NCBI RefSeq assembly: GCF_029168335.1
Contig: NZ_JARGYC010000002.1
Coordinates: forward strand, 62,001 to 126,000
Origin: Psychromarinibacter sediminicola
GTDB taxonomy: Bacteria; Pseudomonadota; Alphaproteobacteria; Rhodobacterales; Rhodobacteraceae
Reading direction: 5' to 3'
Length of the DNA: 64,000 nt
In this document: piece by piece, positions 10,735-28,013 of the stretch
How positions within the stretch are numbered: position 1 is the stretch's first letter
How the letters are laid out: every line of letters begins with the position of its first letter
Notes under the pieces: generated by a model
Databases searched by the model: none
Told to the model about the DNA's origin: nothing
The model's input: only the letters and a program-made list of their open reading frames with translations
Translations under genes and position numbers: made by a program

Positions 10735-11816
10735 GCCTGTCGGTCGATATCCGCCATGCGCTGCCCGGGCTGGCGCTGGATGTGCGGTTCGAGGCGCCGG
10801 CGGGGATCACCGTGCTGTTCGGCCGCTCCGGCGCCGGGAAGACCACCGTCGTCAACGCGGTCGCGGGGCTTCTCAGGCCGGATCAGGGACGCATTTCGGT
10901 CAACGGGCGCGTGCTGTTCGACAGCGGGGCGGGGGTGAACCTGCCGCCGCACCGGCGCCGGCTGGGCTATGTCTTCCAGGAGGCGCGGCTGTTCCCGCAT
11001 ATGACCGTGCGGCGCAACCTGGCCTACGGGCAGCGCTTCGCGCCGAAGGGGGCGGGCGGCGAGGAGATGGGCCGCGTGGTCGAGATGCTCGGGATCGGCG
11101 CGCTGCTGGACCGGCGGCCCGGCGCGCTGTCGGGCGGCGAGCGGCAGCGCGTGGCGATCGGCCGGGCGCTGCTGGCGGCGCCGAAGCTGATCCTGGCGGA
11201 CGAGCCGCTCGCCTCGCTGGACGAGGCGCGAAAGGCGGAGATCCTGCCCTATTTCGAGCGGCTGCGCGACGAGGTGGCGGTGCCGATCCTCTATGTCAGC
11301 CACGCCGCGGCCGAGGTGGCGCGGCTGGCCACCAGCGTGGTGGTGCTGGAGGACGGGCGCGCGGCGCGGCAGGGCGCCGCGGCAGAGGTGCTGTCGGACC
11401 CGGCGGTGACGCCGCTGGGCGTGCGCTCGGCGGGCGCGATGCTGGAGGCGCGGGTGGTGCGGCATCACGCCGACGGGTTGAGCGAGTTGCAGGCGGACGG
11501 GCTGACGCTGTGGCTGCCGCGCGTGCCGCAGGCGGAGGGAACCCCGCTTCGGGTGCGGGTGGAGGCGCATGACGTGATGCTGGCGCTGACCCGGCCGGAG
11601 GGGATATCGGCGCTGAACGTCCTGCCGGCGACGGTGCGCGAGATCCGGATGGGCGACGGGCCGGGGGCGCTGGTGCAGCTGTCGGCGGGGCCGAACCGGC
11701 TGCTCGCCCGGGTCACGCGGCGGTCGGTGGAGGCTCTGGAGCTGCGGCCGGGACTGGAGCTGTTCGCGGTGCTGAAGGCGGTCGGCGTCGCCAAGGAGAG
11801 CGTCGCCGACCTGTAG
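10731..11816 (+). CDS. modC: Molybdate ABC transporter ATP-binding protein ModC
   Basis: 361 residues. The ABC domain has Walker A GRSGAGKT (about 31-38), signature LSGGERQRVAIGRALL and Walker B LILADEPLASLDEA. The last 70 or so residues form a TOBE/Mop-like domain (SALNVLPATVREIRMGDGPG), typical of ModC, which senses oxyanion to inhibit transport. The ATG at 10731 overlaps the modB stop (ATGA). Energises molybdate uptake at the cytoplasmic face. No modE or mop gene is in the window. Confidence 0.94.
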   Translation: MSLSVDIRHALPGLALDVRFEAPAGITVLFGRSGAGKTTVVNAVAGLLRPDQGRISVNGRVLFDSGAGVNLPPHRRRLGYVFQEARLFPHMTVRRNLAYGQRFAPKGAGGEEMGRVVEMLGIGALLDRRPGALSGGERQRVAIGRALLAAPKLILADEPLASLDEARKAEILPYFERLRDEVAVPILYVSHAAAEVARLATSVVVLEDGRAARQGAAAEVLSDPAVTPLGVRSAGAMLEARVVRHHADGLSELQADGLTLWLPRVPQAEGTPLRVRVEAHDVMLALTRPEGISALNVLPATVREIRMGDGPGALVQLSAGPNRLLARVTRRSVEALELRPGLELFAVLKAVGVAKESVADL

Positions 11817-11838
11817 GCGCCAGGCCCCCGAACAGGCT

Positions 11839-13023
11839 CTAACCGCCGTGAAAGAGCCTTTCCGGCAGGCCGTAGAGGTCGATCCAGCCGTACCAGTGAA
11901 CGTCCGTGGGACCGATCACATAGTCGATGGCCCGCCACCCCCCGGCCTCGCGCACGAGCAGGACCATGACGAGGTCGCTCATGAGATCGGCCCGCCAGTC
12001 CGCCGCGTAGGGCGTCGTGAGCCAGTTCAGCGGCTGGCCGTTGGGTTGCAGCGGCTCGGCCGAGAGATAGGCCCAGCGCCCGTCGCTGCGCAGGGTGGAG
12101 ACGAGGAAGATCACGCGCTGGCCCAACTCGGGCACGATCACCTCGCGGGCGGCGTCCATGATCTGCGACCGCTCGGCGGTGCCGCGCGCCGGGGTGTAGT
12201 AGCCGCCGGTCGGGGGCGGCGGCAGGGTCGCCGCGGGCGGCTCCGGCTTCGGGACGATCACCGGCAGGTCGGTGGGCAGCGGCGTGTCGGTGGAGACCGC
12301 GACGGCGCGCAGGCTGTCCATGATCCGGCGATAGGGCGCGGCATCGGCCGCGGGGGCGATGTCGGCCTGGAAGCCGTGGATCGTGCCGGCACGGAACAGC
12401 TCGCTGTGCAGGATCAGGCGGCCGTCGCGCACGGCTTCGGCGGTGAAGCCGTCACCGGCGGGCGTCAGCGCGGCGGAGCGGATCTCCTGGAACCCGCCCT
12501 CCGCGAGGTAGCTGCCCATGCGCCCGGCCGGGGTGTCCTCCAGCGCGTTGTAGCTGCCCCAGACGGCGAAGGAGCCGCCGCCGTCCCGCGCCTCGAACGA
12601 CCGGCCGTCGCCGTTCTGGGGCGGCGGCATTGGGTCGAACCGGGCGGCGGGATAGTCGATGGTCGTGCCGAAGCGGGCGTTGGTGTAGGTCTGCCAGTCC
12701 GCCGCGATCCCGGCGGGCGGGTCGTCGGCCGGCGGGCTGTCGGGCACCGTGCCCGAGGCCGTGCTGTCGCCCTTCTTGCCGCTCTCGGCTGCCGGCGGCG
12801 CCTCTGGGCCGAGCGGCAGGCCGTCGAGCGAATACTGTCCCGGCATGACGACCTGCCCGGTCCCTTCGAGGAGTTCGGGCAGCACAGTGTCGATGTCGAG
12901 CGGCACGTCGGCGGCGGGCGACCAGCGGTCGAAGCGGTCGGCCGCTTCGTCGACGCCGGGCGGGAGCGCCTGCGCCGGCCCCGCCAGGACGAGCGCCGTG
13001 AGACTAATGGCCAGGGAACGCAT
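11839..13023 (-). CDS. Exported hypothetical protein, Pro-rich, two alphaproteobacterial-type domains
   Basis: 394 residues, not recognised as a named family. A signal peptide (1-19, ending AQA) is followed by a disordered Ser/Pro/Asp-rich stretch (about 78-108). A domain at about 110-245 begins TNARFGTTIDYPAARF and contains PQNGDGRSF. A Pro-rich linker (about 255-275) leads to a final domain (RSQIMDAAREVIVPELGQRVIFLVSTLRSDGRWAYL...GPTDVHWYGW). Both domains resemble conserved but uncharacterised segments of exported alphaproteobacterial proteins. Last gene of a three-gene operon, 3 bases after the 646-residue protein. Likely periplasmic. Confidence 0.75.
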   Translation of the reverse strand: MRSLAISLTALVLAGPAQALPPGVDEAADRFDRWSPAADVPLDIDTVLPELLEGTGQVVMPGQYSLDGLPLGPEAPPAAESGKKGDSTASGTVPDSPPADDPPAGIAADWQTYTNARFGTTIDYPAARFDPMPPPQNGDGRSFEARDGGGSFAVWGSYNALEDTPAGRMGSYLAEGGFQEIRSAALTPAGDGFTAEAVRDGRLILHSELFRAGTIHGFQADIAPAADAAPYRRIMDSLRAVAVSTDTPLPTDLPVIVPKPEPPAATLPPPPTGGYYTPARGTAERSQIMDAAREVIVPELGQRVIFLVSTLRSDGRWAYLSAEPLQPNGQPLNWLTTPYAADWRADLMSDLVMVLLVREAGGWRAIDYVIGPTDVHWYGWIDLYGLPERLFHGG

Positions 13024-13026
13024 GGC

Positions 13027-14967
13027 TCACTCCTTCCATTCGTAGATGTAGCGGTAGCAGCCTACCGGGTTGAGATCGGCCTTGATCTGGAACCGTATGG
13101 CGCCGTCGTCGGTCTCTTCGCCATAGCCCTTCGCCGGTGCGGTCATCTCGCCCGACCACGCGGCGGAGAAGTCCGAATTCCAGGCCGCCTTGACGTCGTC
13201 TTCGTTGATCCGGCGGCTGGCGCCCGTCCCGTAGCCACATTCGACATGGGCGACATCCATGCTGAGCGAGGCGCCGCTCCCGCCCCAGCGCGCGGAAAAG
13301 TCGGCCTGCAGCGAAAGGGACATCGGGTAGGTCTGGTCCGGCACCAGCACGGCCGGCGGCGGGGTCCAGGTGACATCGGCCGAGATCGGATCCCAGGCTT
13401 CGCCGCAGCGCGGCTTGACGTTCGCGAAATGCCCGCTGCCGTCCGACATCGAGCCGCTGGTGTCGTAGCATTCGTGGTTGTCGATGTCCTCCCGGACCTT
13501 GCCGAAGGACTCGACCAGCACCCAGTGCCCGCCCTCCGGCGGCGGGGTGTCCTCCTCCGCGACGTCGCCCGCTTCGTCCGGTGTCGCCTCGTCCTCCGCG
13601 TCCTTTTCGACGACGAAATGCACGGTCGCGGTGTCGCTTTCGTCGAAGGTGAAGGTCTCGGTCTCGACCCCGTCGGCGTGGTGCAGGCGGATCGTGTCGG
13701 GAAAGCCGTTCCGGATGAAGGCGATCTTGGTCATCCCGGTGCGCTTCGATTCGCCGGGCGCGATGTTGCCGTACCAGGCGCTGCCGTCCCCCTTGACCAG
13801 CGCAAGGCGGCCCGGTTCTTCCAGCCCCTCGGTGGTGACGTAGATGAACAGCGGCGCGTTGAGCTCCGGCCTGAGCTCGGCGTTCAGCCACGCCACCTCG
13901 TCGCGCAGCGCCTTCTCCGTCGTCGCGCGGGCGATCAGGGGAAAGATGTCGCGCGCCAGCATCGCCTTGAGCTCGTGGCGGAAGCGCCGCTCGATCTTGG
14001 CGCGCAGGTCGTTGGACAGGTCGGTGTCCAGGTCAATGGTGGCCGAGGTGCCGCCGCCGAAGGTCCAGGTGTCGGCTCCGGTGTCGTAGCGGAGCTCCTC
14101 CTGGAACCGCTGGGACGTCCAGGCGCGCTTGGCGTAGAGGTATATGTCGTTGTCCAGGCGGTTCTTGAACACCACCGGAGAGTCGCCGTAGCGCCGGTAG
14201 TAGTAGCTGACCAGCGTCAGCCAGTCGTCCTTGCTCCGCCCCGCCTCCTTGCGGTTCAGGATCGCGGAGGCCCGCGCCGACAGGGAGGCGTCGTCGTCCC
14301 CGGTGCTCGCGGCATAGACGTCGTCCATCACGGCGTAGTAGTTGCGATAGGCGCGCTCCCACATCTTCGTGTGATCGTCCCAGACCTGCGTGGCGACGGT
14401 GTTGAGCGACCAGTCCACCATGATGAAGGTGACGGAGCCCAGCTGCATCGCGGCGGTGCCGAACCGGCCGATGGCGAAGCCCACGATGCCCTTGTAGGCG
14501 TTGATGCCGGCGGCCTTGTTGTCGAGGTTGTGCAGATCCATCAGCACCTGCAGCGCGGCCAGGATGCCGCCCAGGTTGGTCAGGGCGGTGTTGGTGTTGC
14601 CGAGCGCGGCGATCTTGGCACCGTGCTCGGCCAGCGTGCCAACGGCGGCGGTGCCCCCGATGCCGAAGTTCAGCCACGCCCAGCCCTCCATCGCGGCGGC
14701 CTCGGCCTCTTCGCGGCCCTTCTGCAGGGCGTTGTCCCAGTAGTGCTTGGCCAGCGCGCCGTCCTGCAGGAAATCCCGCCCCTTCAACAGGTGGTCGACC
14801 GCACCCGGGGTCACCGTGAACCGCGTGACCCGTTCGCCGGGGCGGCCGGCATTCTCGGTCTCGATCCCGATGGGCGTGAACCCGGAAGCGGCGGCGGCGG
14901 GCTGTGCCATCACCGCGAGGCCGAGCGCCGCGGCGCCCAGCGCGCGGCGGAGGGCGGGTCTTCTCAT
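13027..14967 (-). CDS. Large exported protein of unknown function with hydrophobic helical core
   Basis: 646 residues, unrecognised. A signal peptide (1-27, ending AAAA) leads into a helical region; about residues 80-180 hold Gly/Ala-rich hydrophobic helices (such as GIGGTAAVGTLAEHGAKIA and IVGFAIGRFGTAAMQLG) that could insert in membranes. After a charged helical stretch, a beta-rich segment (about 380-470) contains TEGLEEPGRLALVKGDGSAW. An acidic linker (about 470-500) precedes a C-terminal beta domain with four Cys (HECYD, PRCGE, VECGYG, GCYRY), probably disulfide-bonded. ATG 14967 overlaps the preceding stop (ATGA). Secreted or periplasmic; role unknown. Confidence 0.75.
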   Translation of the reverse strand: MRRPALRRALGAAALGLAVMAQPAAAASGFTPIGIETENAGRPGERVTRFTVTPGAVDHLLKGRDFLQDGALAKHYWDNALQKGREEAEAAAMEGWAWLNFGIGGTAAVGTLAEHGAKIAALGNTNTALTNLGGILAALQVLMDLHNLDNKAAGINAYKGIVGFAIGRFGTAAMQLGSVTFIMVDWSLNTVATQVWDDHTKMWERAYRNYYAVMDDVYAASTGDDDASLSARASAILNRKEAGRSKDDWLTLVSYYYRRYGDSPVVFKNRLDNDIYLYAKRAWTSQRFQEELRYDTGADTWTFGGGTSATIDLDTDLSNDLRAKIERRFRHELKAMLARDIFPLIARATTEKALRDEVAWLNAELRPELNAPLFIYVTTEGLEEPGRLALVKGDGSAWYGNIAPGESKRTGMTKIAFIRNGFPDTIRLHHADGVETETFTFDESDTATVHFVVEKDAEDEATPDEAGDVAEEDTPPPEGGHWVLVESFGKVREDIDNHECYDTSGSMSDGSGHFANVKPRCGEAWDPISADVTWTPPPAVLVPDQTYPMSLSLQADFSARWGGSGASLSMDVAHVECGYGTGASRRINEDDVKAAWNSDFSAAWSGEMTAPAKGYGEETDDGAIRFQIKADLNPVGCYRYIYEWKE

Positions 14968-15668
14968 GTTGCGGTCCTTTCGTTGTTGTCGGGAATGCCG
15001 TGGCTGGCGAGCGCCTTGTGCAGGGCCCGGAGCCCGGCGCCGAGCGCGTCCTCGGCGATGGTCAGGCGGGTGCCGTCGGCCAGGTGAAGCGTGAGCCCGT
15101 TGCGCGGCCGCGCCAGGAGCAGCGCGCCGGCGGCCCCGAAGCGGCCGGCGCCGACCAGCGCGGGCGCCAGCGCGATCATCCAGCGCGGCAGGGCCTTCTG
15201 GCCGCGCGTCGCCGCGCGGATGTCGGCAAAGACGACGCGGCGTTCGGCGCGTGCGGAATGCACGGTCAGGCCATGGTCGTCGATCCGGAGCCACCAGGCG
15301 GCATAGACCGCTCCGATCAGCCAGAAGGCCGAGCACAGCGCGGCCATGGGCCACAGCAGCGCGGCCGACGGGTGAACCGCGCCCCAGCCAGGCTCTGCGC
15401 GCGCGGCCCAGACGGGGATCGCCGCGAACAGCGCCGACAGGACGAAGCCGAGCCAGTCGGGCACGACCTGCGACGTCATGCGGTCGTAGGTGAAGGCGCC
15501 GGGCGGGCGGGGACGATGCGGGATCAGCGCATAGGCCGCCACGGCGGCCGCCTGAAGCAGGGCCACGACGGGCCAGGAGGCCCGACCCGCGGCCGCGAAG
15601 GCACAGATCGTCAGCAGGGCCGTCGCCAAGCGGCGCGCGAATTCCGATATGCCCGATGCGGTGGCCAT
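14964..15668 (-). CDS. Membrane protein of unknown function (PH-like C-terminal part)
   Basis: 234 residues, unrecognised. Four likely membrane helices (about 14-50, 72-90, 100-125 and a short one near 165-185). Between and after them lie strands such as LRIDDHGLTVHSARAERRVVFADIRA and NGLTLHLADGTRLTIAEDALG, the pattern of small bacterial PH-like membrane proteins. Start ATG has CAGGAGAC upstream. First gene of the operon with the two exported proteins; its stop overlaps the next start. A palindrome at 15721-15734 lies about 50 bases upstream. Confidence 0.7.
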   Translation of the reverse strand: MATASGISEFARRLATALLTICAFAAAGRASWPVVALLQAAAVAAYALIPHRPRPPGAFTYDRMTSQVVPDWLGFVLSALFAAIPVWAARAEPGWGAVHPSAALLWPMAALCSAFWLIGAVYAAWWLRIDDHGLTVHSARAERRVVFADIRAATRGQKALPRWMIALAPALVGAGRFGAAGALLLARPRNGLTLHLADGTRLTIAEDALGAGLRALHKALASHGIPDNNERTAT

Positions 15669-15720
15669 GATGTCTCCTGACTGGGTCGGCCAACGCTATC
15701 TCGCGGGAAGCCCGTGCGCT

Positions 15721-15734
15721 TTGACACCTGTCAA
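15721..15734 (-). promoter_or_regulatory. Palindrome TTGAC-N4-GTCAA upstream of the unknown three-gene operon
   Basis: TTGACACCTGTCAA is a perfect inverted repeat apart from the central CC/GG. TTGAC-N4-GTCAA fits the Crp/Fnr-family binding pattern (FnrL prefers TTGAT-N4-ATCAA; Dnr/Nnr types accept TTGAC). It also contains a TTGACA that could itself be a -35 element on the minus strand. It lies 53 bases before the membrane-protein start codon and just past the end of the SDR gene. Confidence 0.45.
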
Positions 15735-15744
15735 CATCGGCGGC

Positions 15745-16482
15745 TCAGAGATCGGTCTTCTTGAACACCGCTTCCGGAAGGGCGCGGATAAGGGCCATGA
15801 TCCAGCGCCAGACCGGCTTGGTGTAAACCACGTTGCGGCGCGTCTCGACGGCGGCGAAGATCGCGTCGGCGACTTGGCCGGGCGCGGCGGTGAGGCGCGC
15901 GGGCAGGTCCATGCCTTCGGTCATCTTCGTGGCGACGAAGCCGGGCTTGACGGTGACGACATGCACGCCCTTTCCCGCCAGCCGGTTGCGCAGGCCCGAC
16001 AGGAACGCGGTAAAGCCGGCCTTGGCGGCGCCGTAGACATAGTTGGACGCGCGGCCTCTGTCCCCGGCGACCGAGGAGATGCCGACCAGCGTGCCGCTGC
16101 CGCGCGCCTCGAACCGGTTGGCGACGACGCCCAGCGTCAGCGCTGGGCCTTCGAAGTTCGAGCGGATGTCGCGGGTGGCCGCGGCGAGGTCCGCCCGGTT
16201 GGTGGCCTGGTCGTTCATCGTCCCGACGGCGCAGACCGCGACCTCGGGCAGGTCCGGCAGGCTGTCGATGAAGGGCTCCAGCGCCTCGGTGGCGAGCGCG
16301 TCATAGGCGTGGCAGGTGACCGTGACGCCGGTCTCGGCCGCCAGTCGCTCGGCCTCGGAGCGCAGCGCGGCGGGGTCGCGGGCGGCCAGCTGCAGCGGGT
16401 GGCCCGCCTGGGCGAAGCGGCGGGCGGTGGCCATCGCAATGTCGGAGCGCGCGCCGAGGATGAGGACGGGTCTTCCTGTCAT
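15745..16482 (-). CDS. Short-chain dehydrogenase/reductase
   Basis: 245 residues. The Rossmann nucleotide loop is unusual: VLILGARSDIAMATARRFA in place of TGxxxGxG, similar to DprE2-like SDRs that reduce keto-sugars on polyprenyl carriers. Catalytic Ser is in GISSVAGDRG, and Tyr/Lys in YGAAKAG. The C-terminus (YTKPVWRWIMALIRALPEAVF) is hydrophobic and could touch the membrane. ATG 16482 is preferred over a longer frame. The adjacent alpha/beta hydrolase gives no firm clue to the substrate; no DprE1-like oxidase is present. Confidence 0.82.
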   Translation of the reverse strand: MTGRPVLILGARSDIAMATARRFAQAGHPLQLAARDPAALRSEAERLAAETGVTVTCHAYDALATEALEPFIDSLPDLPEVAVCAVGTMNDQATNRADLAAATRDIRSNFEGPALTLGVVANRFEARGSGTLVGISSVAGDRGRASNYVYGAAKAGFTAFLSGLRNRLAGKGVHVVTVKPGFVATKMTEGMDLPARLTAAPGQVADAIFAAVETRRNVVYTKPVWRWIMALIRALPEAVFKKTDL

Positions 16483-16542
16483 GTGGTTCTGTCCCTGCTC
16501 TTTGCCGTCCGGCTTAGCGGATCGGCCCGGAGCGGCCAAACC

Positions 16543-17355
16543 CTAATCCGCCCCCGTCTCTCCGACGAAGGCGCGGGTGATCGGGCTGTCGGGCACTTCC
16601 AGCCCGGCGATCACGTCGAAATGGTGGCGGCCCGGGTCGATCTCCTCCCTGCAGTCGGGCCAGGCGTCGGACAGCAACCGGGCCTGGCGCAGGAATTCCG
16701 GCCGCTCGTCGGCGCCGACCCAGGCTGTCACGGGCACGCCGGGGATCGGCGTCAGCAGCGCGGGGCTTTCGGCATCGGCCTCGGCGTCGTCGATGGCGAG
16801 CGTGTCGTTCATCGCGGTGCGGCGCAGCGGGTGCAGGTCGTGCAGGCCGCTGATCGACAGGACCCCGGCGAGCCGCAGGCGGGGCGCGGCCGGCAGGGGG
16901 GAAAGCTGGCAGGCCATGCGCGCGACCAGATGGCCGCCGGCGGAATGGCCGGCCAGCCGGACCGGGCCGTCGACATGCGACGCGGCCAGGTCGATGGCGC
17001 GGCCGATATCCTCGGCGATCCAGGACAGCCGCGCCTCGGGCGCCAGCCGGTAGCCGGGCAGCGCCACCGCCCAGCCGCGCGCCAGGGCGCCGCGGGCGAG
17101 ATGCGACCAGAGCGACTTGTCGAACTTCATCCAGTAGCCGCCGTGAACGAAGACGGCGAGGCCGGCGGGCGGACCGTCGGGGCGGAACAGGTCGAGCCTC
17201 TGGCGCTCGTGCGTGCCGTAGGCGAGGTCGAGCTCGGCGTCGGGATGCTCTGCCCGGAACGCCTCGGCCGCGGCCTGCCAGGCGGGCGGGTAGCTGGCGG
17301 CGTCGGGGATGTAGGCCCCGTTCTCGTAGGCGTCGGTCCAGTCGAAATCGTCCAT
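16543..17355 (-). CDS. Alpha/beta hydrolase, kynurenine formamidase-like (HGGYW type)
   Basis: 270 residues from ATG 17355 (another ATG is five codons upstream at 17370). The oxyanion-hole motif HGGYW (FVHGGYWMKFD) and nucleophile GHSAGGH define the BNA7/carboxylesterase-like branch that includes eukaryotic-type arylformamidases. Catalytic Asp and His are probably in WVGADERPEF and GRHHFDVIAG. Cytoplasmic. If it is a kynurenine formamidase, the partner tryptophan 2,3-dioxygenase is not in the window. A generic esterase remains possible. Confidence 0.8.
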   Translation of the reverse strand: MDDFDWTDAYENGAYIPDAASYPPAWQAAAEAFRAEHPDAELDLAYGTHERQRLDLFRPDGPPAGLAVFVHGGYWMKFDKSLWSHLARGALARGWAVALPGYRLAPEARLSWIAEDIGRAIDLAASHVDGPVRLAGHSAGGHLVARMACQLSPLPAAPRLRLAGVLSISGLHDLHPLRRTAMNDTLAIDDAEADAESPALLTPIPGVPVTAWVGADERPEFLRQARLLSDAWPDCREEIDPGRHHFDVIAGLEVPDSPITRAFVGETGAD

Positions 17356-17528
17356 GCCTGTCCCCCCCATGCATCGTCCCCTGCCCGTTTATACGGTATT
17401 CGGCCCCGGTGCGGACGAAATCGTAACGGACGGCTTGTGTTCAAGCGGGGAAATTGGAGTATCGGTGAAGGAAACGGCCCCGGCCGAGCCGCGGGACCGG
17501 ACAAATGAACAAGACAGGGAGATCGAAG

Positions 17529-18665
17529 ATGAACATGAAGACACTTCTGGCGGCCGCCGGGCTGGCGGCGCTGACCGCGGCCGGCGCCGAGGCGCAGGTC
17601 AAGGTCGGGATGATCACCACGCTGTCGGGCGGCGGCGCGAGCCTGGGCATCGACACCCGCGACGGGTTCATGCTGGCCATCGAGATGGCCGGGCGCGACG
17701 ACATCGAGGTGATCGTCGAGGACGATCAGCGCAAGCCCGACGTGGCTGTGCAGCTGTCGGACAAGATGATCCAGTCGGACCAAGTGGATGTGCTGACCGG
17801 CATCGTGTGGTCGAACCTCGCGATGGCCGTGGTGCCCTCGGCCACGGCGCAGGGGCTGTTCTATCTGTCGACCAACGCGGCGCCGGCGCAGCTCGCCGGG
17901 CCGGGATGCCACCCGAGCTACTTCTCGGTCTCGTACCAGAACGACAACCTGCACGAGGCCGCCGGCGCGCATGCGACGAATGCAGGCTACGAGAACACCT
18001 TCATCCTCGCGCCGAACTACCCCGCCGGGCACGATTCGCTGAACGGGTTCAAGCGGTTCTACGAAGGCGGGCTGGCCGGCGAGATCTATACCGAGCTGGG
18101 GCAGACCGACTATGCCGCCGAGCTGGCGCAGATTCGCGCCTCGGGCGCGGATTCGATCTTCTTCTTCCTGCCGGGCGGGATGGGGATTTCGTTCCTCAAG
18201 CAATACGCGGATTCGGGGATCGACCTGCCGGTGGTCGGGCCGGCCTTCTCCTTCGACCAGGGCATCCTGCAGGCTGTGGGCGAAGCCGCGCTGGGCGTGA
18301 ACAACACCTCGACCTGGTCCAAGGACCTGGACAACGCGGCGAACGCGGCCTTCGTCGAGGCGTTCCAGGAGACATACGACCGGCTGCCGTCGATCTACGC
18401 GGCACAGGGCTATGACACGGCGAACCTGCTGCTGTCGGCGATGGACAAGGCCGACATCGACGACACCGAGGCGTTCCGCGCCGCGCTGGGCGAGGCGGAT
18501 TTCGACAGCGTGCGGGGCGGGTTCGGCTTTGCCTCGAACAACCATCCCGTCCAGGACATCTACGTGCGCGAGGTGATCAAGGAGGGCGACATCTTCACCA
18601 ACAAGATCGTCGGCATCGCAATGGAAGACCGCGCCAACGCCTATACCGAAGAGTGCTCGATGTGA
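17529..18665 (+). CDS. ABC transporter substrate-binding protein, branched-chain amino acid (LivK) type
   Basis: 378 residues. ATG 17529 has GGGAG 7 bases upstream; the signal peptide ends GAEAQ. The type I periplasmic-binding fold is seen in VKVGMITTLSGGGASLGIDTRDGF, the peripheral ligand pocket in GIVWSNLAMAVVPSA, and a conserved Cys pair (GCHPSYF and the C-terminal EECSM). It captures a small ligand in the periplasm for the LivHMGF-type genes that follow. Family members bind amino acids, aromatic acids, amides or urea, so the ligand is not assigned. First gene of a five-gene operon. Confidence 0.9.
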   Translation: MNMKTLLAAAGLAALTAAGAEAQVKVGMITTLSGGGASLGIDTRDGFMLAIEMAGRDDIEVIVEDDQRKPDVAVQLSDKMIQSDQVDVLTGIVWSNLAMAVVPSATAQGLFYLSTNAAPAQLAGPGCHPSYFSVSYQNDNLHEAAGAHATNAGYENTFILAPNYPAGHDSLNGFKRFYEGGLAGEIYTELGQTDYAAELAQIRASGADSIFFFLPGGMGISFLKQYADSGIDLPVVGPAFSFDQGILQAVGEAALGVNNTSTWSKDLDNAANAAFVEAFQETYDRLPSIYAAQGYDTANLLLSAMDKADIDDTEAFRAALGEADFDSVRGGFGFASNNHPVQDIYVREVIKEGDIFTNKIVGIAMEDRANAYTEECSM

Positions 18666-18672
18666 GCCTGAC

Positions 18673-18697
18673 GGGGTCCGGCCGCCGGCCGGGCCCC
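18673..18697 (+). other. Intercistronic hairpin between binding protein and permease genes
   Basis: Ten-bp stem with one G-U pair, 18673-18682 against 18688-18697, loop CGCCG, no U-tract. Such hairpins after binding-protein genes often protect the upstream mRNA and raise binding-protein output over the membrane subunits. Confidence 0.6.
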
Positions 18698-18717
18698 TCG
18701 CCTTACGGAAGCTTCCC

Positions 18718-19641
18718 ATGTCTCCAATCCTGATTGCGGAGCAGGTTCTGAACGGCCTGCAGTTCGGCGTCATGCTGTTCCTGATGGCGGCCGGGCTGAC
18801 GCTGATCTTCGGGGTCATGGGGCTGATCAACCTGGCGCACGGGTCGCTCTACATGATCGGCGCCTTCGCCGCGGCGGCGGTGGCCGGCGCAACGGGGTCG
18901 TTCCTGCTGGCGCTGGGCGCGGCGCTGGTGGCGGCGGCGCTGGCCGGGGCGATCGTGGAGCTGGTGGTGATCCGCCGGCTTTACGACAAGGACCACCTCG
19001 ACCAGGTGCTGGCGACCTTCGCGCTGATCCTGATCTTCTCGGAAGGCACCCGCTGGCTGTTCGGGTCGTTCCCGCTGTATCTCGACATCCCCGACTGGCT
19101 GTCCGGGCCGGTGACGCTGCCCGGCGGCATCCAGTATCCGCTCTACCGGCTGGCGCTGATCTGCGTGGGGCTGCTCGTGGCGCTGGGCCTGTGGCTGCTG
19201 ATCACGCGCACGCGGGTCGGCATCCGTATCCGCGCCGGCGAGAACGACCGCGAGATGATCGCCGCGCTGGGCGTCGATATCGGCAAGCTCTACACGCTGG
19301 TCTTCGCGCTGGGCGCGGGGCTGGCCGGGCTGGCCGGCGCGCTGGTGGGCGCGATCCAGTCGGTGCAGGTGGGGATGGGCGAGCCGGTGCTGATCCTGGC
19401 CTTCGTGGTCATCGTGATCGGCGGAATCGGGTCGATCAAGGGGGCGCTGGTGGGCGCGCTGCTGGTAGGTCTGACCGATACGCTGGGCGGCATCTTCCTG
19501 CCGGAGCTGTTCAAGCTCTTCACCGACGACGCCGCAGGCGCCACGGCGACCGGCTCGGCCTTTGCCTCGATGGCGATCTACATCCTGATGGCGGCGGTGC
19601 TGGTCTGGCGGCCCACGGGGCTTTACGGGGCGAAGGCATGA
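18718..19641 (+). CDS. ABC transporter permease, LivH type
   Basis: 307 residues with about eight membrane helices; the N-terminus EQVLNGLQFGVMLFLMAAGLTLIFGVMGLINLAHG is the diagnostic LivH opening. The EAA-like loop appears as ENDREMIAALGVDIGKLYTLVFALG. Its stop overlaps the LivM-type start (ATGA). Forms the inner-membrane channel with the next gene product. Confidence 0.92.
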   Translation: MSPILIAEQVLNGLQFGVMLFLMAAGLTLIFGVMGLINLAHGSLYMIGAFAAAAVAGATGSFLLALGAALVAAALAGAIVELVVIRRLYDKDHLDQVLATFALILIFSEGTRWLFGSFPLYLDIPDWLSGPVTLPGGIQYPLYRLALICVGLLVALGLWLLITRTRVGIRIRAGENDREMIAALGVDIGKLYTLVFALGAGLAGLAGALVGAIQSVQVGMGEPVLILAFVVIVIGGIGSIKGALVGALLVGLTDTLGGIFLPELFKLFTDDAAGATATGSAFASMAIYILMAAVLVWRPTGLYGAKA

Positions 19642-20618
19642 ACCGCGAGGCGATGCTGAACGCCGCCGTGCTGCTGGCGCTGGTGGCGGTGCCGGGCTGG
19701 GCGCTGTGGGCCGGGGAGCCATTCACCATCACCCTGGCGACGCGCGCGGTGATCTTCGCGCTGGCGGCAGTGGGGCTGAACATCGCGCTGGGGCTGGGCG
19801 GCATGGTGAGCCTGGGGCATGCCGTCTATTTCGGCGTCGGCGGCTACGCGATGGGCATCCTGGCCTGGCACGCGCAGAGCTATACGCCGCTGGTCGAGGC
19901 GCTGGCGATCCCGGGGACGAAATCCATGCCGGTGATCTGGCTGGTGGCGGTGATTTCCTCGGCCCTGGCGGCCCTCGTCATCGGGGTGCTCGCGCTGCGG
20001 ACCTCGGGCGTCTATTTCATCATGATCACGCTGGCCTTCGGGCAGATGGTCTATTTCTTCGCGATCTCCTGGCCGGCCTATGGCGGCGAGGACGGGTTGT
20101 CGATCTATGTGCGCAACGGGTTTCCGGGACTGAACACGCTGGTGCCGGTGCAGTTCTACGGGCTGTGCCTCATGGTGCTGCTGGCGGTACTGGCCCTGAA
20201 CTGGCGGCTGGCGCGGTCGCCGTTCGGGCTGGCGCTGAACGCGGCGCGGCAGGTGCCGCAGCGGGTGGAGACGGTGGGGCTCGACCCGACGCGCGTGAAG
20301 CTGGTGGCGCTGGTGATCTCCGGGGCGGTCACCGGGTTGGCGGGGGCGCTGTTCGCGGATCTGAACCGCTTCGTCAGCACCACGATGCTGAGCTGGCAGA
20401 TGTCGGGCGAGATCATGGTCTTCGTCATCATCGGCGGCGTCGGGCGGCTGTTCGGGCCGGTGGTGGGGGCCGGGCTCTACGTGATCCTCGAACATTTCCT
20501 GGGCGATCTCAGCGACTACTGGCAGGTGTTTTTGGGCCTGATCCTGCTGGCCGTTGTGCTGTTCGGGCGCGGCGGGCTGGTGGGCATCGTGGCGGGACGG
20601 GCGCGGACGCATGGCTGA
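19638..20618 (+). CDS. ABC transporter permease, LivM type
   Basis: 326 residues, about nine membrane helices. LNIALGLGGMVSLGHAVYFGVGGY is the LivM signature, and NAARQVPQRVETVGLDPTRVKLVALVISG the ATPase-contact loop. ATG 19638 overlaps the previous stop; its own stop overlaps the next start by 8 bases. Heterodimer partner of the LivH-type permease. Confidence 0.92.
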   Translation: MNREAMLNAAVLLALVAVPGWALWAGEPFTITLATRAVIFALAAVGLNIALGLGGMVSLGHAVYFGVGGYAMGILAWHAQSYTPLVEALAIPGTKSMPVIWLVAVISSALAALVIGVLALRTSGVYFIMITLAFGQMVYFFAISWPAYGGEDGLSIYVRNGFPGLNTLVPVQFYGLCLMVLLAVLALNWRLARSPFGLALNAARQVPQRVETVGLDPTRVKLVALVISGAVTGLAGALFADLNRFVSTTMLSWQMSGEIMVFVIIGGVGRLFGPVVGAGLYVILEHFLGDLSDYWQVFLGLILLAVVLFGRGGLVGIVAGRARTHG

Positions 20619-21356
20619 GGTCGTTCTGTCCACCCGGGGGATCACCAAGCGGTTCGGCGCGGTGACGGCGAGCGAGGATATCTCGCTGGACCTGCGCGCG
20701 GGCGAGATCCATGCGGTGATCGGGCCGAACGGCGCCGGCAAATCGACGCTGATCGCGCAGATCTGCGGCGGGCTGGCGCCGGATGCCGGGCGGGTGGAGT
20801 TCCTGGGGCGCGACGTGACGGCGCGGCCGGTCCGGGCGCGGGCGCGGATGGGGCTGGCGCGGACCTTCCAGATCTCGGCGCTGGCGATGGAGGACACGGT
20901 GCTGCAGAACGCGCTGCTCGGCGCGCTGGGGGCGTCGGGGCGGCCCTGGCGGTTCCTGCGCGGCGTTCTGACCGAGCGCTCCCTGCGCGACCGGGCCGAG
21001 GCGGCGCTGGCGCGCGTCGGACTGGACGACGTGGCCGCGGTGCGCACGGCGGAGCTGAGCCACGGGCAGCGGCGGCTGCTGGAAGTCGCGGTGGCGCTGA
21101 CGCTGGCGCCGCGCGCCTTCGTGATGGACGAGCCGATGGCGGGGCTGGGCAGCGAGGGATCGGAGCGGCTGACCACGCTTCTCGGCTCGCTGCGGCGGGA
21201 GGCGCCGATCCTGCTGGTGGAACACGACATGGACGCGGTCTTCGCATTGGCCGACCGGGTCAGCGTGCTGGTCTACGGCCGCGTCATCGCGACCGGCACG
21301 CTGGACGAGATCCGGGCCGATCCGGCGGTGCGCGAAGCTTATCTCGGAGACGCCGC

Positions 21357-21360
<4 letters not shown>
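20611..21360 (+). CDS. ABC transporter ATP-binding protein, LivG type
   Basis: 249 residues. Walker A GPNGAGKST, an ABC signature of degenerate type (LSHGQRRLLEVAVAL, with SHGQ where SGGQ is usual, as is common in LivG) and Walker B AFVMDEPMAGLG. Starts at ATG 20611, overlapping the LivM-type gene. Hydrolyses ATP with the LivF-type partner at the cytoplasmic face. Confidence 0.92.
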
Positions 21361-22043
<683 letters not shown>

Positions 22044-23178: not shown

Positions 23179-24039
23179 ATGAACATGCAAGCGAACGTGC
23201 CCATACGGGGGCCGCTCATCGCGATCGGCGGCGCCGAGGACAAGTCGCAGGAAGCGGCAATCCTGAAGCGGGTGCTGACCTATTCGGCCACCAAATCCCC
23301 GGTCGTCGGCGTCATCACCACGGCAAGCGCGATCCCCGAGGACGTGTTCAAGGGCTACGAGACGGTCTTTACCACGCTCGGCGCGTCCGAGGTGCTGGAC
23401 ATCCGGATACGGGACCGGAGCGACGCCGCGGCGGAGCGCTTCATCGCGATGATCCAGCGCGCCGACGTGATCTTCATCTCGGGCGGCGACCAGATGCGCC
23501 TGACCAACATCCTCGGCGGCTCGCCGGTGCTGGAGGCGATGCGGGCGCGGCATGCCGAGGGCGCGGTCGTCGCGGGGACCAGCGCCGGGGCGGCCTGCCA
23601 GTCCTCCACCATGGTCTATGGCGGCGCCGCCACCGACAGCCTGCGCAAGGGCGCCGTGAAGATGGCGGCGGGGTTCGGGCTTGTCGACGGGGTGATCATC
23701 GACACCCATTTCCTGGAACGCGGCCGCTTCTCGCGGCTGATGGAAGTGGGTGCCACGAACCCTGAATTCCTTGGCGTCGGCATCGGCGAGGACGCCGCCG
23801 TCTTATTTGATGACGACAAAATACTTGCCTTTGGCCCCGGTCACATCATCCTCGTTGACAGTTCGAACATCACCGGTTCGAATGTCTTTGAGCTTGACGA
23901 TGGGGAGGCCGTCACGGTCCACAACGTCACGATGCATGCGCTGGTCGACGGGTATGGATACAGCCTGAGCGACCGGCGGGTCCTCGGGCCGGAAGAGCTC
24001 GGGGCGAACAGCCTGGAGCCAAGGATTGCGTATACTTGA
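23179..24039 (+). CDS. cphB: Cyanophycinase
   Basis: 286 residues of the S51 serine-peptidase family. PLIAIGGAEDKS opens the fold, DVIFISGGDQMRL precedes the nucleophile Ser135 in AGTSAGAACQ, and the His is probably in IIDTHFLERGRFSR. It cleaves cyanophycin (multi-L-arginyl-poly-L-aspartate) to beta-Asp-Arg dipeptides in the cytoplasm. No signal peptide, so it acts on the cell's own granules rather than on external polymer. It overlaps cphA by 14 bases. Bases around 23790-23910 are visibly less GC-rich than the rest of the gene. Confidence 0.93.
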   Translation: MNMQANVPIRGPLIAIGGAEDKSQEAAILKRVLTYSATKSPVVGVITTASAIPEDVFKGYETVFTTLGASEVLDIRIRDRSDAAAERFIAMIQRADVIFISGGDQMRLTNILGGSPVLEAMRARHAEGAVVAGTSAGAACQSSTMVYGGAATDSLRKGAVKMAAGFGLVDGVIIDTHFLERGRFSRLMEVGATNPEFLGVGIGEDAAVLFDDDKILAFGPGHIILVDSSNITGSNVFELDDGEAVTVHNVTMHALVDGYGYSLSDRRVLGPEELGANSLEPRIAYT

Positions 24040-26668
24040 ACACCGTGCGCTGCGCGGACCCAACTATTACAGCCGGTATCAAGCCATCTACATGCGGCTC
24101 GATATCGAGGAGCTGGAGGAGCGGCCGAGCGACGAGGTTGCCGGCCTGGCGGAGCGCCTGGAGGCGCTGATCCCGTCGATCTACGACCACCGCTGCTCGG
24201 TCGGCGAGGCCGGCGGATTCCTGCAGCGGGTGCGCAACGGCACCTATGCCGGCCACATGGTCGAGCATCTCGCCATCGAGCTGCAGAACCTCGTGGGCTT
24301 CTCGGTCGGCTACGGCAAGACCGTCGACAGCTATGACGCGGGCATCTACAACGTCGTCTACCGCTACCGCGACGAGGCCACGGGTCTTGCGGCGGGCGAA
24401 GCGGCCGTGGCGATCGCGCAGCAGCTCTATGACGGCGAAGACGTCGACCTGCAGCCGTATATCGACCACCTGAAGGAGGTGCGCGACGCCAACGCGCTGG
24501 GGCCCTCGACCGGTGCCATCGTGGACGCGGCCAAGGCGCGAAACATCCCGTTTTCCAACCTGACCGAGGGGACGAGCTATACCCAACTGGGTCACGGGGT
24601 GAAGCAGCGCCGCTTTCAGGCGACGGTCACCGACGCCTCGGGGATCATCGGGCACTCCATCGCCGACGACAAGGACTGGACCAAGCAGATCCTGGGCGAG
24701 GCCGGCGTGCCCGTGCCGCAGGGGCAGAACTGCTATTCCTGGGAAGAGGCGAAAGAGGCGGCCGAGTGGATCGGCTGGCCGGTGGTCACCAAGCCGCTGT
24801 CGGGCAATCACGGGCGCGGCGTGACGACCGACATCGCCTCGATGGAGGATCTGCGCTCGGGCTACGACGCGGCGGTCGAGCGGCTGCGCGAGGAGTCCGA
24901 CGGCGTCATCGTGGAAAGCTACATCCGGGGCGAGGATCACCGCATCCTGGTCATCGGCGGCCGGCTCGTCGCCGCGGCACGCCGCCGGCCGGCGCATGTT
25001 GTCGGCGACGGCCGGAGCACGATCCAGGCGCTGATCGACTGCGAGAACGCCGATCCGCGACGGGGCGTGGGCCACGAGAACCTCCTGACGCAGATCCACG
25101 TGGACGAACAGACCCACCGGATGCTGGAACAGGCGGGCCTGACGCTGGAGACCGTGCTGCCCGAGGGCGAGATCGCGTTCCTGAAATCCACCGCGAATAT
25201 CTCGACCGGCGGCACCGCCATGGACCTGACGGACGAGGTGCACCCGGAAGTGAAATTCGCGATGGAGCGGATCGGGCGGCTCGTGGGGCTCGACGTGATC
25301 GGGATCGACCTGCTCGCCGAGACGCTGTCGCGGCCGCTGGAGGAGCAGTCGGCCGGCGTGGTCGAGGTGAATGCCGGCCCCGGCTTCCGCATGCACATGG
25401 CCCCGACCCACGGCACGCCGCGGCCGGTGGGCGAGCATGTGGTCGACATGCTGTTCCCGGACCCGACCGATGACGGGCGCATCCCGATCACCGCGATCAC
25501 CGGCACCAACGGCAAGACCACCACGACCCGGCTGATCAGCCATATCCTGCGGCAGGCGGGCACCTCCGTCGGCATGGGCTGTACCGGGACGGTCGAGATC
25601 GACAACCACGTGATCCTGCGCGGCGACTACTCCGGCCCCGCCGCCGCCCATGCGGTGCTGCGCGAGCCGACGGTGGAGCATGCCGTTCTGGAGACGGCGC
25701 GCGGCGGGATCATGCGGCGCGGCCTGGGCTTCGACGAATGCGACGTGGGCGTGCTGCTGAACATCGCCTCCGACCACCTCGGCGAGCGCGACATCCACAC
25801 GCTGGACGAGCTGGCGCGCTGCAAGACCGTCATCGTCGACGCGGTGAAGCGCGAGGGCGGCTATTGCGTGCTGAACGCCGACGATCCGCTGGTGATGGAG
25901 CACGGCACCTACTGGGCGCGGGGCGAGATCATCTATTTCACGATGGATCCCGACAATCCCGAGCTTGAAACCCACCTGAGCGAGGCGGGCATGGTGCTGA
26001 CAGTGCGGCACGGCAAGATCATCATGCTGCGCGGCAAGGTCACCGTCGACATCTGCGAGGTCAACGACGTGCCCATCGCCTTCGAGGGCCACGCGCGGTT
26101 CAACGTGCAGAACGCCATGGCCGCCGCCGCCGCCGCGATCGCCCACGGGGTCGAGATCGACGACGTGCGGGCGGGGCTGACGACCTTCCACCCGACGCCG
26201 ACGCAGATGCCCGGCCGCACCAACTATTTCGAGGCCGACGGGGTGAAATGCCTGATCGACTACGGCCACAACGTGCCGGCGCTCGAAGCGCTGGAGCCGC
26301 TGGTGCGCGGGCTCGCCACCCAGCGCCGGATCGGCGTCGCCTCGGCCCCGGGCAACCGGCGCGACGAGGATCTCGCCGCGCTCGGTGCGCAGCTTGCCCG
26401 GATGTGCGACACGCTCTACGTCTTCGAGACGGACTCGCGCGGCCGCGAGACCGGCGAGACCGCGAAGCTGATCCATGACGGCGCCGCCGGCGCCGGCACG
26501 TCCTGTACCGTCAAGACCGTCATGCAAGAGCACGATGCCGTGGCGCAGGCCATCGGAGAGGCGCAGCGGGGCGACTTCTTGTTGCTGCTGATCGACGACA
26601 TCGAGGGCACCACCGAGCGGCTGAAGGGGCGCAGCTTTCCCCACCAGGCCGAGCTCGCCCAGGCCTGA
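24026..26668 (+). CDS. cphA: Cyanophycin synthetase
   Basis: 880 residues, the full CphA1 length. The N-terminal region (MRILEHRALRGPNYYSRYQA) is followed by an ATP-grasp domain (about 210-480, ending VEVNAGPGFRMHM) that adds Asp to the backbone. A Mur-ligase-like half then shows P-loop TGTNGKTTTT (about 491-500) and DYGHNVPAL; it adds Arg to the beta-carboxyl. It polymerises cyanophycin from Asp, Arg and ATP. The start is TTG (24026), overlapping cphB by 14 bases, which implies translational coupling of synthesis to degradation genes. cphB-cphA order is the usual one. Confidence 0.96.
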   Translation: MRILEHRALRGPNYYSRYQAIYMRLDIEELEERPSDEVAGLAERLEALIPSIYDHRCSVGEAGGFLQRVRNGTYAGHMVEHLAIELQNLVGFSVGYGKTVDSYDAGIYNVVYRYRDEATGLAAGEAAVAIAQQLYDGEDVDLQPYIDHLKEVRDANALGPSTGAIVDAAKARNIPFSNLTEGTSYTQLGHGVKQRRFQATVTDASGIIGHSIADDKDWTKQILGEAGVPVPQGQNCYSWEEAKEAAEWIGWPVVTKPLSGNHGRGVTTDIASMEDLRSGYDAAVERLREESDGVIVESYIRGEDHRILVIGGRLVAAARRRPAHVVGDGRSTIQALIDCENADPRRGVGHENLLTQIHVDEQTHRMLEQAGLTLETVLPEGEIAFLKSTANISTGGTAMDLTDEVHPEVKFAMERIGRLVGLDVIGIDLLAETLSRPLEEQSAGVVEVNAGPGFRMHMAPTHGTPRPVGEHVVDMLFPDPTDDGRIPITAITGTNGKTTTTRLISHILRQAGTSVGMGCTGTVEIDNHVILRGDYSGPAAAHAVLREPTVEHAVLETARGGIMRRGLGFDECDVGVLLNIASDHLGERDIHTLDELARCKTVIVDAVKREGGYCVLNADDPLVMEHGTYWARGEIIYFTMDPDNPELETHLSEAGMVLTVRHGKIIMLRGKVTVDICEVNDVPIAFEGHARFNVQNAMAAAAAAIAHGVEIDDVRAGLTTFHPTPTQMPGRTNYFEADGVKCLIDYGHNVPALEALEPLVRGLATQRRIGVASAPGNRRDEDLAALGAQLARMCDTLYVFETDSRGRETGETAKLIHDGAAGAGTSCTVKTVMQEHDAVAQAIGEAQRGDFLLLLIDDIEGTTERLKGRSFPHQAELAQA

Positions 26669-26714
26669 GACACGACAGAAGCGCGCCGCCCCATTGGCGC
26701 GGGAGGAAGGATAT

Positions 26715-28013
26715 ATGACCAAGAACGTCTTCGTCGTCGGCCTGAACGACTATAACGCCGAGCGACTCAAGCGGCTGCGAGGCGTGGAGGACGTGACGTT
26801 CCATCCGCTGCTGACGCCGGCCCAGGTCTATGAGACGCAGGAATTCGACATCCCCGCGATGCTGGCCGAGGCCGAGGCGACGCTCGACGCCTTCGACGGC
26901 TCGATCGACGCCATCGTCGGCTACATGGATTTCCCGGTCTCGACCATGCTGCCGCTGCTCAGCGCCAAGTACGGCACGCCCAACACCTCGCTGGAGAGCC
27001 TTCTCAAATGCGAGCACAAGTTCTGGTCGCGCAGCGTGATGGCCGAGGTGATCCCGGACCACGTGCCCGCCTTCACCGCCTTCGACCCGTTCGACGATGA
27101 CGCGCTGTCGAAGATCGGCGAGGCCAACCTGCGGTTTCCGTTCTTCGTCAAGCCGATCAAGTCCTCGGGCTCGCGCTTGGGCTTCCGGATCGACAGCCCC
27201 GAGGACTTCGACTACGCGATCGAGAAGCTGCGCGCCGAGATCGGCCAGATATCCGAGCCGTTCAACGCCGTGCTCGACAAGGCCGACCTGCCCGACGACA
27301 TTCGCGCCATCGAAGGCCATTACTGCATGGCCGAACGGGTGATCGGCGGGCGGCAATGCACCGTCGAGGGCTATGTCCACGATGGCGAGGTCACCTGCTA
27401 CGGCACCGTGGATTCGATCCGCTACCCGCAGGTGCTGAGCTTTTTCTACTATCTCTACCCGTCCGCCCTGCCGCGCCGCGTGCAGGACCAGATGTGGGAG
27501 ATATCGCAAAAGGTCATGGCGCATATCGGCTATGACAACGCGGCCTTCAACATCGAGTATTTCTGGGACGAGGTGGACAACCAGATCTGGCTGCTGGAGA
27601 TCAACACCCGCATCGCCCAGTCGCATTGCGACCTGTTCGAGACGGTCGACGGCGTCAGCCACCAGCAGGTGGCGGTCGATCTCGGGCTTGGTCGCAAGCC
27701 GGACATGCCGCGCAGCCAGGGCACGCAGAACGTGGCGGCCGAGTTCTTCTATCGCGTCTTCTTCAGCGACGCGACGGTCGCCCGCGCCCCCTCGCGCGCC
27801 GAGGTCGAAGTGGCCGCCGAGCAGGTCGAGGGCACGCGCATCGTCTCCAACCTGACAAAGGGCATGAAGCTGTCGGAGCTGCCCGAGCAGGACGCCTACA
27901 GCTATGCCGTCGCCTCGCTCTGGATGGGCGCAAGCACGACCTCGAAGCTGTTGTGGAACTACGAGCAGGTGATGAAGCGGCTGAACTACGAATTCACCGA
28001 CATCGTCGACTGA
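26715..28013 (+). CDS. ATP-grasp ligase of unknown substrate in the cyanophycin cluster
   Basis: 432 residues from ATG 26715 with GGAGGAAGG upstream, 46 bases after cphA. The ATP-grasp fold is clear: the glycine-rich nucleotide loop in FFVKPIKSSGSRLGFRI (about 140-156), and the metal-binding strand NIEYF...IWLLEINTRIAQSH (about 280-300). The N-terminal pre-ATP-grasp part has NVFVVGLNDYNAERL. These enzymes make carboxylate-amine bonds through acyl phosphates (amino-acid ligases, biotin carboxylase, D-Ala-D-Ala ligase). It is not a CphA paralogue because the Mur-like half is absent. Product unknown; a dipeptide or capped amino acid linked to cyanophycin metabolism is inference. Confidence 0.85.
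   Translation: MTKNVFVVGLNDYNAERLKRLRGVEDVTFHPLLTPAQVYETQEFDIPAMLAEAEATLDAFDGSIDAIVGYMDFPVSTMLPLLSAKYGTPNTSLESLLKCEHKFWSRSVMAEVIPDHVPAFTAFDPFDDDALSKIGEANLRFPFFVKPIKSSGSRLGFRIDSPEDFDYAIEKLRAEIGQISEPFNAVLDKADLPDDIRAIEGHYCMAERVIGGRQCTVEGYVHDGEVTCYGTVDSIRYPQVLSFFYYLYPSALPRRVQDQMWEISQKVMAHIGYDNAAFNIEYFWDEVDNQIWLLEINTRIAQSHCDLFETVDGVSHQQVAVDLGLGRKPDMPRSQGTQNVAAEFFYRVFFSDATVARAPSRAEVEVAAEQVEGTRIVSNLTKGMKLSELPEQDAYSYAVASLWMGASTTSKLLWNYEQVMKRLNYEFTDIVD

Follow-up and report, generated by a model that had tools for sequence, protein, structure and literature searches.

A predicted ATP-grasp carboxylate-amine ligase, usually paired with a CocE/NonD hydrolase in mostly salt-adapted hosts and tied to cyanophycin genes in one lineage

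The gene directly behind the cyanophycin synthetase gene cphA in the window, by which we mean the entire 64,000-nucleotide stretch of Psychromarinibacter sediminicola DNA analysed here, encodes a distinct, uncharacterised ATP-grasp protein with the predicted activity of a carboxylate-amine ligase and a modelled fold of the L-amino-acid-ligase structural type. Its main interest lies in a ligase–hydrolase module that occurs mostly in salt-adapted hosts and is tied to cyanophycin in the window's lineage. On balance, we favour the reading that, under osmotic stress, the ligase and its CocE/NonD-family neighbour jointly produce and recycle a small amide or dipeptide, fed in this lineage by cyanophycin, and we hold this view with modest confidence.

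According to this proposal, the ligase would activate a carboxylate as an acyl phosphate and join it to an amine, yielding a small amide or dipeptide, which the hydrolase, with its intact Ser-Asp-His triad, would split again. The two enzymes would act as a make-and-recycle pair for an osmolyte or stress protectant, with a putative role under salt or osmotic load. In the window's lineage, the pair appears to be connected with cyanophycin storage (cphA, cphB, and IaaA or IadA) and sometimes with ectoine genes, and the stored polymer may supply the precursors Asp and Arg or serve to recover nitrogen. The proposal was derived from the fold, the CocE pairing, the association with the ectoine synthase EctC and with salt, and the links to cyanophycin and ectoine genes; at the level of sequence and model, the predicted fold, intact residues of catalytic type, frequent pairing and lineage-specific co-occurrence are established. 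Since ligase and hydrolase are usually adjacent and their hosts mostly salt-loving, the product is probably a small protective compound and not a cyanophycin primer. If this is correct, a two-gene module spread across several phyla makes a stress metabolite in saline habitats, and the role of cyanophycin in these bacteria exceeds plain nitrogen storage.

The gene and its local cluster

The ligase gene starts at an ATG, preceded by GGAGG at 26702–26706, and comprises 432 codons plus a stop. The open reading frame list begins at an upstream TTG; the N-terminus from the ATG agrees with those of homologues in the alignment. That the frame is a real gene and not a chance one follows from its relatives at no fewer than 79 loci and from seven invariant ATP-grasp residues. 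The gene lies 46 bp behind cphA and 62 bp ahead of the hydrolase gene (Table 1). The initial annotation had described a 432-residue ATP-grasp protein lacking the Mur-like half of CphA immediately behind cphA, and this was borne out by the complete reading frame, the 46-bp gap and Pfam, whose matches were CPSase_L_D2 and ATP-grasp_4 (43.9 bits, cut-off 27), with no Mur_ligase family, the CphA-type half, in the protein.

The cphB, cphA, ligase and hydrolase genes share the forward strand with short gaps, a spacing from which co-transcription may be inferred; iaaA is on the reverse strand. The best NCBIfam match of the iaaA product was PRK10226 (319 bits), below its cut-off of 567. Just upstream of the iaaA–cph cluster, a set of genes for an ABC transporter of branched-chain amino-acid type (livKHMGF-like, by eye) occupies positions 17505–22043 (+).

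Table 1. Features of the cluster in the window.
Feature	Position	Strand	Evidence
iaaA, isoaspartyl aminopeptidase / asparaginase-2 family	22069..about 23007 (22953 in other gene calls)	-	PF01112, 347 bits
cphB, cyanophycinase	23179..24039	+	TIGR02069, 233 bits (cut-off 126.6)
cphA, cyanophycin synthetase, 880 aa, TTG start	24026..26668	+	TIGR02068, 1124 bits (cut-off 850)
Predicted ATP-grasp ligase, 432 aa	26715..28013	+	Pfam, alignment, pLDDT 93.8, structure match
CocE/NonD-family serine hydrolase, 671 aa	28076..30091	+	TIGR00976, 244.6 bits (cut-off 66.3)

Distribution of the ligase family

A species-genome collection was scanned with patterns derived from the window's protein, which favour close relatives, and the best 80 of 82 matches yielded 79 loci. 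About half of these relatives were 80–92% identical over the whole protein, with Profundibacterium, Jannaschia and Palleronia as the nearest named hosts. These loci, together with L002 and L004, form the 81-locus set used below. Two genome samples were searched in addition. Among 295 Rhodobacteraceae genomes from 294 genera, 12 contained a member of the ATP-grasp family and 10 an orthologue scoring above 700 bits; among 398 genomes sampled from the window's phylum, 11 had a member of the family with an E-value no higher than 1e-30.

The window's lineage was defined in the tree as genomes with a copy in a 15-row clade or in the Salinisphaera clade, each with 100/100 support. For comparison with the rest of the family, 38 genomes were tallied, comprising the 12 positives of the Rhodobacteraceae sample, G051, the positives of the phylum sample minus the distant G556, and 18 hand-picked genomes from the scan; three genomes that appear twice were counted once, namely G000 and G262, both also present in the phylum sample, and G689, which is identical with G715.

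Relatives with 29–33% identity were found on plasmids of Sphingobium and Paraburkholderia, with no CocE match nearby. We take these hosts not to be halophiles, and counted the plasmid relatives against our main reading. A paralogue in the window's own genome (L138) has PRC-barrel and DUF892-like neighbours, and KGG-repeat and Mn-catalase-like genes lie beside the paralogues at L175, L177 and L214, all judged by eye to be of stress type. A short frame at L146:7544-7813 (G000:C144) is 73% identical to part of the second ATP-grasp protein of the window's genome and is probably a gene remnant. The distant relative in G556 (171 bits, L180:5525-9892) is located near genes that by eye resemble EgtB and EgtD of ergothioneine synthesis.

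Pairing with a CocE/NonD hydrolase

Of the 81 loci (the best 80 of 82 matches plus L002 and L004), 73 have a CocE gene no more than 3 kb from the ligase, with the degenerate L088 included, and 54 have cphA. Four of the eight loci without CocE (L077, L078, L085 and L087) start less than 400 bases from the ligase and a fifth (L090) ends within it; at L034, L058 and L059, the gene is absent despite available flank. In the phylum sample, ten of the 11 family-positive genomes carry CocE next to at least one ligase copy; only G556 has no CocE near its match, a 171-bit one at L180. Nor was there a CocE match in about 18 kb around the further copies L140 (G226), L141 (G280) and L211 (G710). The pairing is therefore usual, but not strict. 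It extends to archaea (Methanosalsum and other Methanosarcinaceae), Balneolota (Balneolales), Nitrospirota and Bacteroidota (Bacteroidales). Ligase and CocE distances correlated over 32 pairs with r 0.53, a value that still includes species relatedness and was reached in none of 5000 permutations.

The hydrolase scores well above the TIGR00976 cut-off (Table 1) and its putative triad of S125, D246 and H272 is identical in all 85 ligase-paired members, which together place it in the CocE/NonD family. Its model (pLDDT 83.1) matched cocaine esterase with Z 26.7 and rmsd 2.5 over 485 aligned residues at 24% identity, so that fold and catalytic triad appear to be common to both; unlike cocaine esterase, the partner hydrolase carries a C-terminal stretch of some 135 residues (about 535–671) outside the matched region. 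A 601-residue frame in Nocardiopsis (L088) was considered as a ligase–CocE fusion and rejected: ligase similarity stops after residue 297 and CocE similarity returns only at the C-terminal part, so the frame was read as a degenerate remnant.

Linkage to cyanophycin genes

Within the Rhodobacteraceae sample, cphA adjoins the ligase in all ten genomes with an orthologue above 700 bits. A cphA match was present in 20 of the 295 genomes, 19 of them over the curated cut-off, and ten of the 20 lack the ligase. The CphAs of the ten ligase-positive genomes are 75–100% identical to that of the window, versus 38–42% in the nine ligase-negative genomes compared. Where genomes outside this family have both the ligase and an unlinked cphA (G703, G706, G707, G709 and G715), their CphAs are 63–70% identical to the window's. 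Counting cphA whether linked or not, 20 of the 21 genomes of the window's ligase lineage have the gene (exception G708), versus one of the 17 other family genomes (G720), in a tally that was drawn up after the data had been seen and contains non-independent relatives. A tree set holding every cphA-linked row has support of only 92/83 and includes copies from G710 and G714, which lack cphA; a narrower 18-row set had reached 99/96 in an earlier tree that lacked five later rows and still included one since removed. The cyanophycin link is real but lineage-bound.

This distribution bears on a cyanophycin-specific function, in which the ligase would convert beta-Asp-Arg, Asp or Arg to another peptide or modify polymer ends, and CocE would be an extra hydrolase for cyanophycin dipeptides. 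Beyond the near-complete co-occurrence within the lineage, this possibility gains from a Bacteroidales contig carrying a second ligase copy of G720 (L209:4849-13409), where cocE–cphA and cphB–ligase–IadA-like genes lie together although its CphA is only 44% identical to the window's and belongs to another clade, and from the suggestion, in PMC10206079, that a cocaine-esterase-like neighbour in NZ_SJEY01000003 (the contig of L039) is a possible isoaspartyl dipeptidase. It is opposed by the ligase–CocE pairs in archaeal, Nitrospirota and Balneolales genomes, some of them MAGs, that have no cphA match, by Salinisphaera japonica, which has the window's ligase lineage and no cphA match, and by iaaA, which is already present in 45 loci, the window counted, among the best 80 of 82 matches. 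We judge it unlikely, if worth keeping in mind.

Six Rhodobacteraceae genomes with cphA and without the ligase (G064, G071, G035, G307, G169 and G255) have a second CphA-like gene nearby that consists of the Mur half only (338–357 bits); these genes, L132–L137, sit beside L115, L111, L112, L117, L114 and L118. The acid excess of CphA was tried as a proxy for salt (0.043 vs 0.035, p 0.045, 10 and 9 genomes) and set aside because the two CphA sets belong to different clades.

Linkage to salt and ectoine

Named hosts among the best 80 of 82 matches include Roseovarius, Roseivivax, Halomonas, Onishia, Fodinicurvata, Rhodovibrio, Salinisphaera and Methanosalsum. We take most of the named hosts to belong to marine or halophilic genera or to be MAGs from soda lakes, and the salt association of the ligase–CocE pair rests partly on taxonomy. 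A second line comes from EctC, which was detected in 11 of the 12 ligase-positive Rhodobacteraceae genomes versus 81 of the 283 ligase-negative ones (p 1.6e-5; 79 of the 81 over the curated cut-off). In the 38-genome tally, likewise drawn up after the data had been seen, EctC is present in 20 of the 21 genomes of the window's lineage, G051 being the exception. As only seven of the 17 family genomes outside this lineage have it, ectoine cannot be the general substrate; a search of three genomes from archaea and one from Balneolales found no EctC either. Two EctC matches were found in three of the 12 ligase genomes versus one of the 283 others; these second copies were not leaned on, since only that of G280 is near the ligase.

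Physical linkage is sparser, with ect genes near the cluster in five of the 54 cphA-bearing loci, many of whose contigs end early; weak ectB matches (25–26%) in L015, L016 and L019 were excluded from this tally. L038 (= L182) has ectABC–ask beside the cluster and another ectABC–ask elsewhere (L187), L054 has ectABC–ask, L022 ectA alone and L058 an ectB fragment at the contig end. The fifth, L052, lies on the same contig as L139, where the order is cocE–ligase–cphA–cphB, iaaA, ask–ectB–ectA without ectC (10373–17860) and a second cocE–ligase pair; the full ectABC–ask of this genome is on another contig (L186).

In all three Salinisphaeraceae loci, a second ligase is fused to an EctC domain (EctC::ATP-grasp; L073:9594-11273 (-), L070:9594-11273 (-) and L069:7596-9278 (+)), which passes PF06339 (E 6.4e-40 in L073). 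According to PMC6344544, Trp21, Arg25, Thr40, Tyr52 and Glu57 of EctC contact the substrate, Glu57, Tyr84 and His92 bind iron, and the His92Ala variant of the P. lautus enzyme retains 12.7% activity. All three fusions keep Trp21, Arg25, Thr40, Tyr52, Glu57 and Tyr84, and their iron-ligand set is incomplete, with V, I and I at position 92. At position 38, where P. lautus has Asn, the fusions have His, a residue that they share with the ordinary EctCs in the alignment. Judging from the loss of His92, the fused domain may bind its ligand instead of cyclising it.

In a bolder version of our proposal, one undescribed class of compatible solute would be common to bacteria and archaea adapted to salt. 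The ligase would form this amide or dipeptide and CocE would recycle it, and producers of ectoine and cyanophycin would build it from N-gamma-acetyl-diaminobutyrate or ectoine together with Asp or Arg derived from cyanophycin. Cyanophycin would then be a feedstock for osmoprotection, since the solute would draw its Asp and Arg from it. We regard this version as speculative and rather improbable. Less probable still is a ligase of the ectoine pathway itself, which would attach a further acid or amine to diaminobutyrate, N-gamma-acetyl-diaminobutyrate or ectoine. The fusions, which keep the substrate residues and have lost His92, would agree with it, as would the second, ectC-less ectAB–ask between the two ligase–CocE pairs of L139 and, in L038 and L054, the ectABC–ask genes adjoining the cluster; the scarcity of ect genes near cphA-bearing loci, the lack of EctC in G051 and in the archaeal and Balneolales genomes searched, and the His at position 38 of the fusions, although ordinary EctCs have it too, weigh against it.

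Family, predicted fold and conserved residues of the ligase

The initial annotation's idea of a distinct amino-acid ligase fits the comparisons made with sequence and model. Seven NCBIfam families matched at E 0.001 or better and none of their models reached its cut-off. Biotin, urea and pyruvate carboxylase scored 31.1 vs 1303.85, 24.4 vs 686 and 21.7 vs 1114.45 bits, respectively, with no carboxylase model above 31.1 bits against cut-offs of 597–1304, and D-alanine--D-alanine ligase (TIGR01205) scored 25.2 vs 245.65 bits. Membership of either the carboxylases, which that annotation had named as grounds for abandoning its idea, or the Ddl ligases was rejected on these scores.

Structure comparison, which it had also proposed, was performed on the AlphaFold model. 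The closest PDB structure by VIA-align was the L-amino-acid ligase BL00235 (3vot; Z 31.6, rmsd 3.3, 385 of 432 residues aligned), followed by BacD (Z 28.8), 4dim, a phosphoribosylglycinamide synthetase (28.8), PurK (27.8), RizA (27.5) and biotin carboxylase (26.6). Foldseek, ranked by E-value, had biotin carboxylases on top, BacD fourth and BL00235 eighth. The sequence profile of the ligase reached 3vot with E 2.4e-8 over columns 85–365, most of its length, slightly behind urea amidolyase (1.7e-8), whose match spans 160 columns only. The near tie with BacD, 4dim and PurK in structure, the first rank of urea amidolyase in the profile and that of biotin carboxylases in Foldseek were counted against our main reading. 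Residues K102, K146, E207, E281, E295, N297 and R299, which we take to be ATP/Mg-type positions and the catalytic Arg, are identical in all 42 aligned members, EctC fusions included, and in all 85 members with a CocE neighbour.

The matches to urea amidolyase, biotin carboxylase, 4dim and PurK suggest, as an alternative, an ATP-grasp enzyme resembling carboxylases or purine-pathway enzymes, or a ligase with protein substrates, which we consider very improbable given the low NCBIfam carboxylase scores and a usual neighbour that is a hydrolase, with no carboxyl-carrier gene noticed by eye in the neighbourhoods viewed.

Least credible is the ligase as a primer-making or chain-capping enzyme for CphA, as the initial annotation had suggested and as its place directly behind cphA might imply: the self-priming motif Cx19HxxEH, at residues 57–81 of the window's CphA, occurs in all 53 CphAs of at least 840 aa at ligase loci (best 80 of 82 matches plus L002 and L004, window included), half of the Rhodobacteraceae genomes with a cphA match lack the ligase, and the ligase exists in genomes without a cphA match. 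According to PMC9262961, this N-domain site makes primers and is tied to primer independence of CphA. On these grounds, a primer role is unlikely and the primer or capping enzyme was rejected.

Relation to known systems

The hydrolase partner and the salt and ectoine link go beyond the initial annotation. With the L-amino-acid ligases BL00235 (3vot), BacD/YwfE (3vmm) and RizA (4wd3), the protein would share an ATP-grasp fold over its full length, as well as ATP/Mg-type residues that are conserved; it differs from them in its identity of only ~15%, its hydrolase partner and its salt context.

Ngg, the dipeptide-forming enzyme of the NAGGN system, contains an ATP-grasp domain. According to PMC8070244, the NAGGN operon responds to osmotic stress and combines Ngg with AsnO and an aminopeptidase, and this combination of a dipeptide-forming enzyme and a peptidase makes it the closest working analogue of our proposal. 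It differs in that neither the NAGGN synthetase Ngg model TIGR03103, absent from the seven NCBIfam families matched, nor a GNAT match (Pfam and NCBIfam) was found in the ligase, that no AsnO gene was noticed adjoining it, and that its partner is a CocE/NonD hydrolase and not the aminopeptidase of NAGGN.

In the cyanophycin cluster of Roseivivax halodurans (L024), the genes are ordered as in the window, and its IaaA was purified and characterised (PMC10206079). That paper covers IaaA and the cocaine-esterase-like neighbour in another genome, and the word 'ligase' does not occur in its main text. The presence of a CocE-like gene in a cluster of this kind is already in print; mention of the ligase was found neither there nor in the literature searched, and the latter, with most subscription papers outside its reach, held no report of the ligase–CocE module. 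The two enzymes are ready for expression and assay, and culturable hosts exist, R. halodurans among them.

A second ligase–deacylase pair was observed in Methanosarcinaceae, where a RimK-like ligase gene and an AstE/aspartoacylase-like gene lie near the ATP-grasp–CocE pair (L084:9335-12247, typed by Pfam, and L086:12-1853, assigned by clustering).
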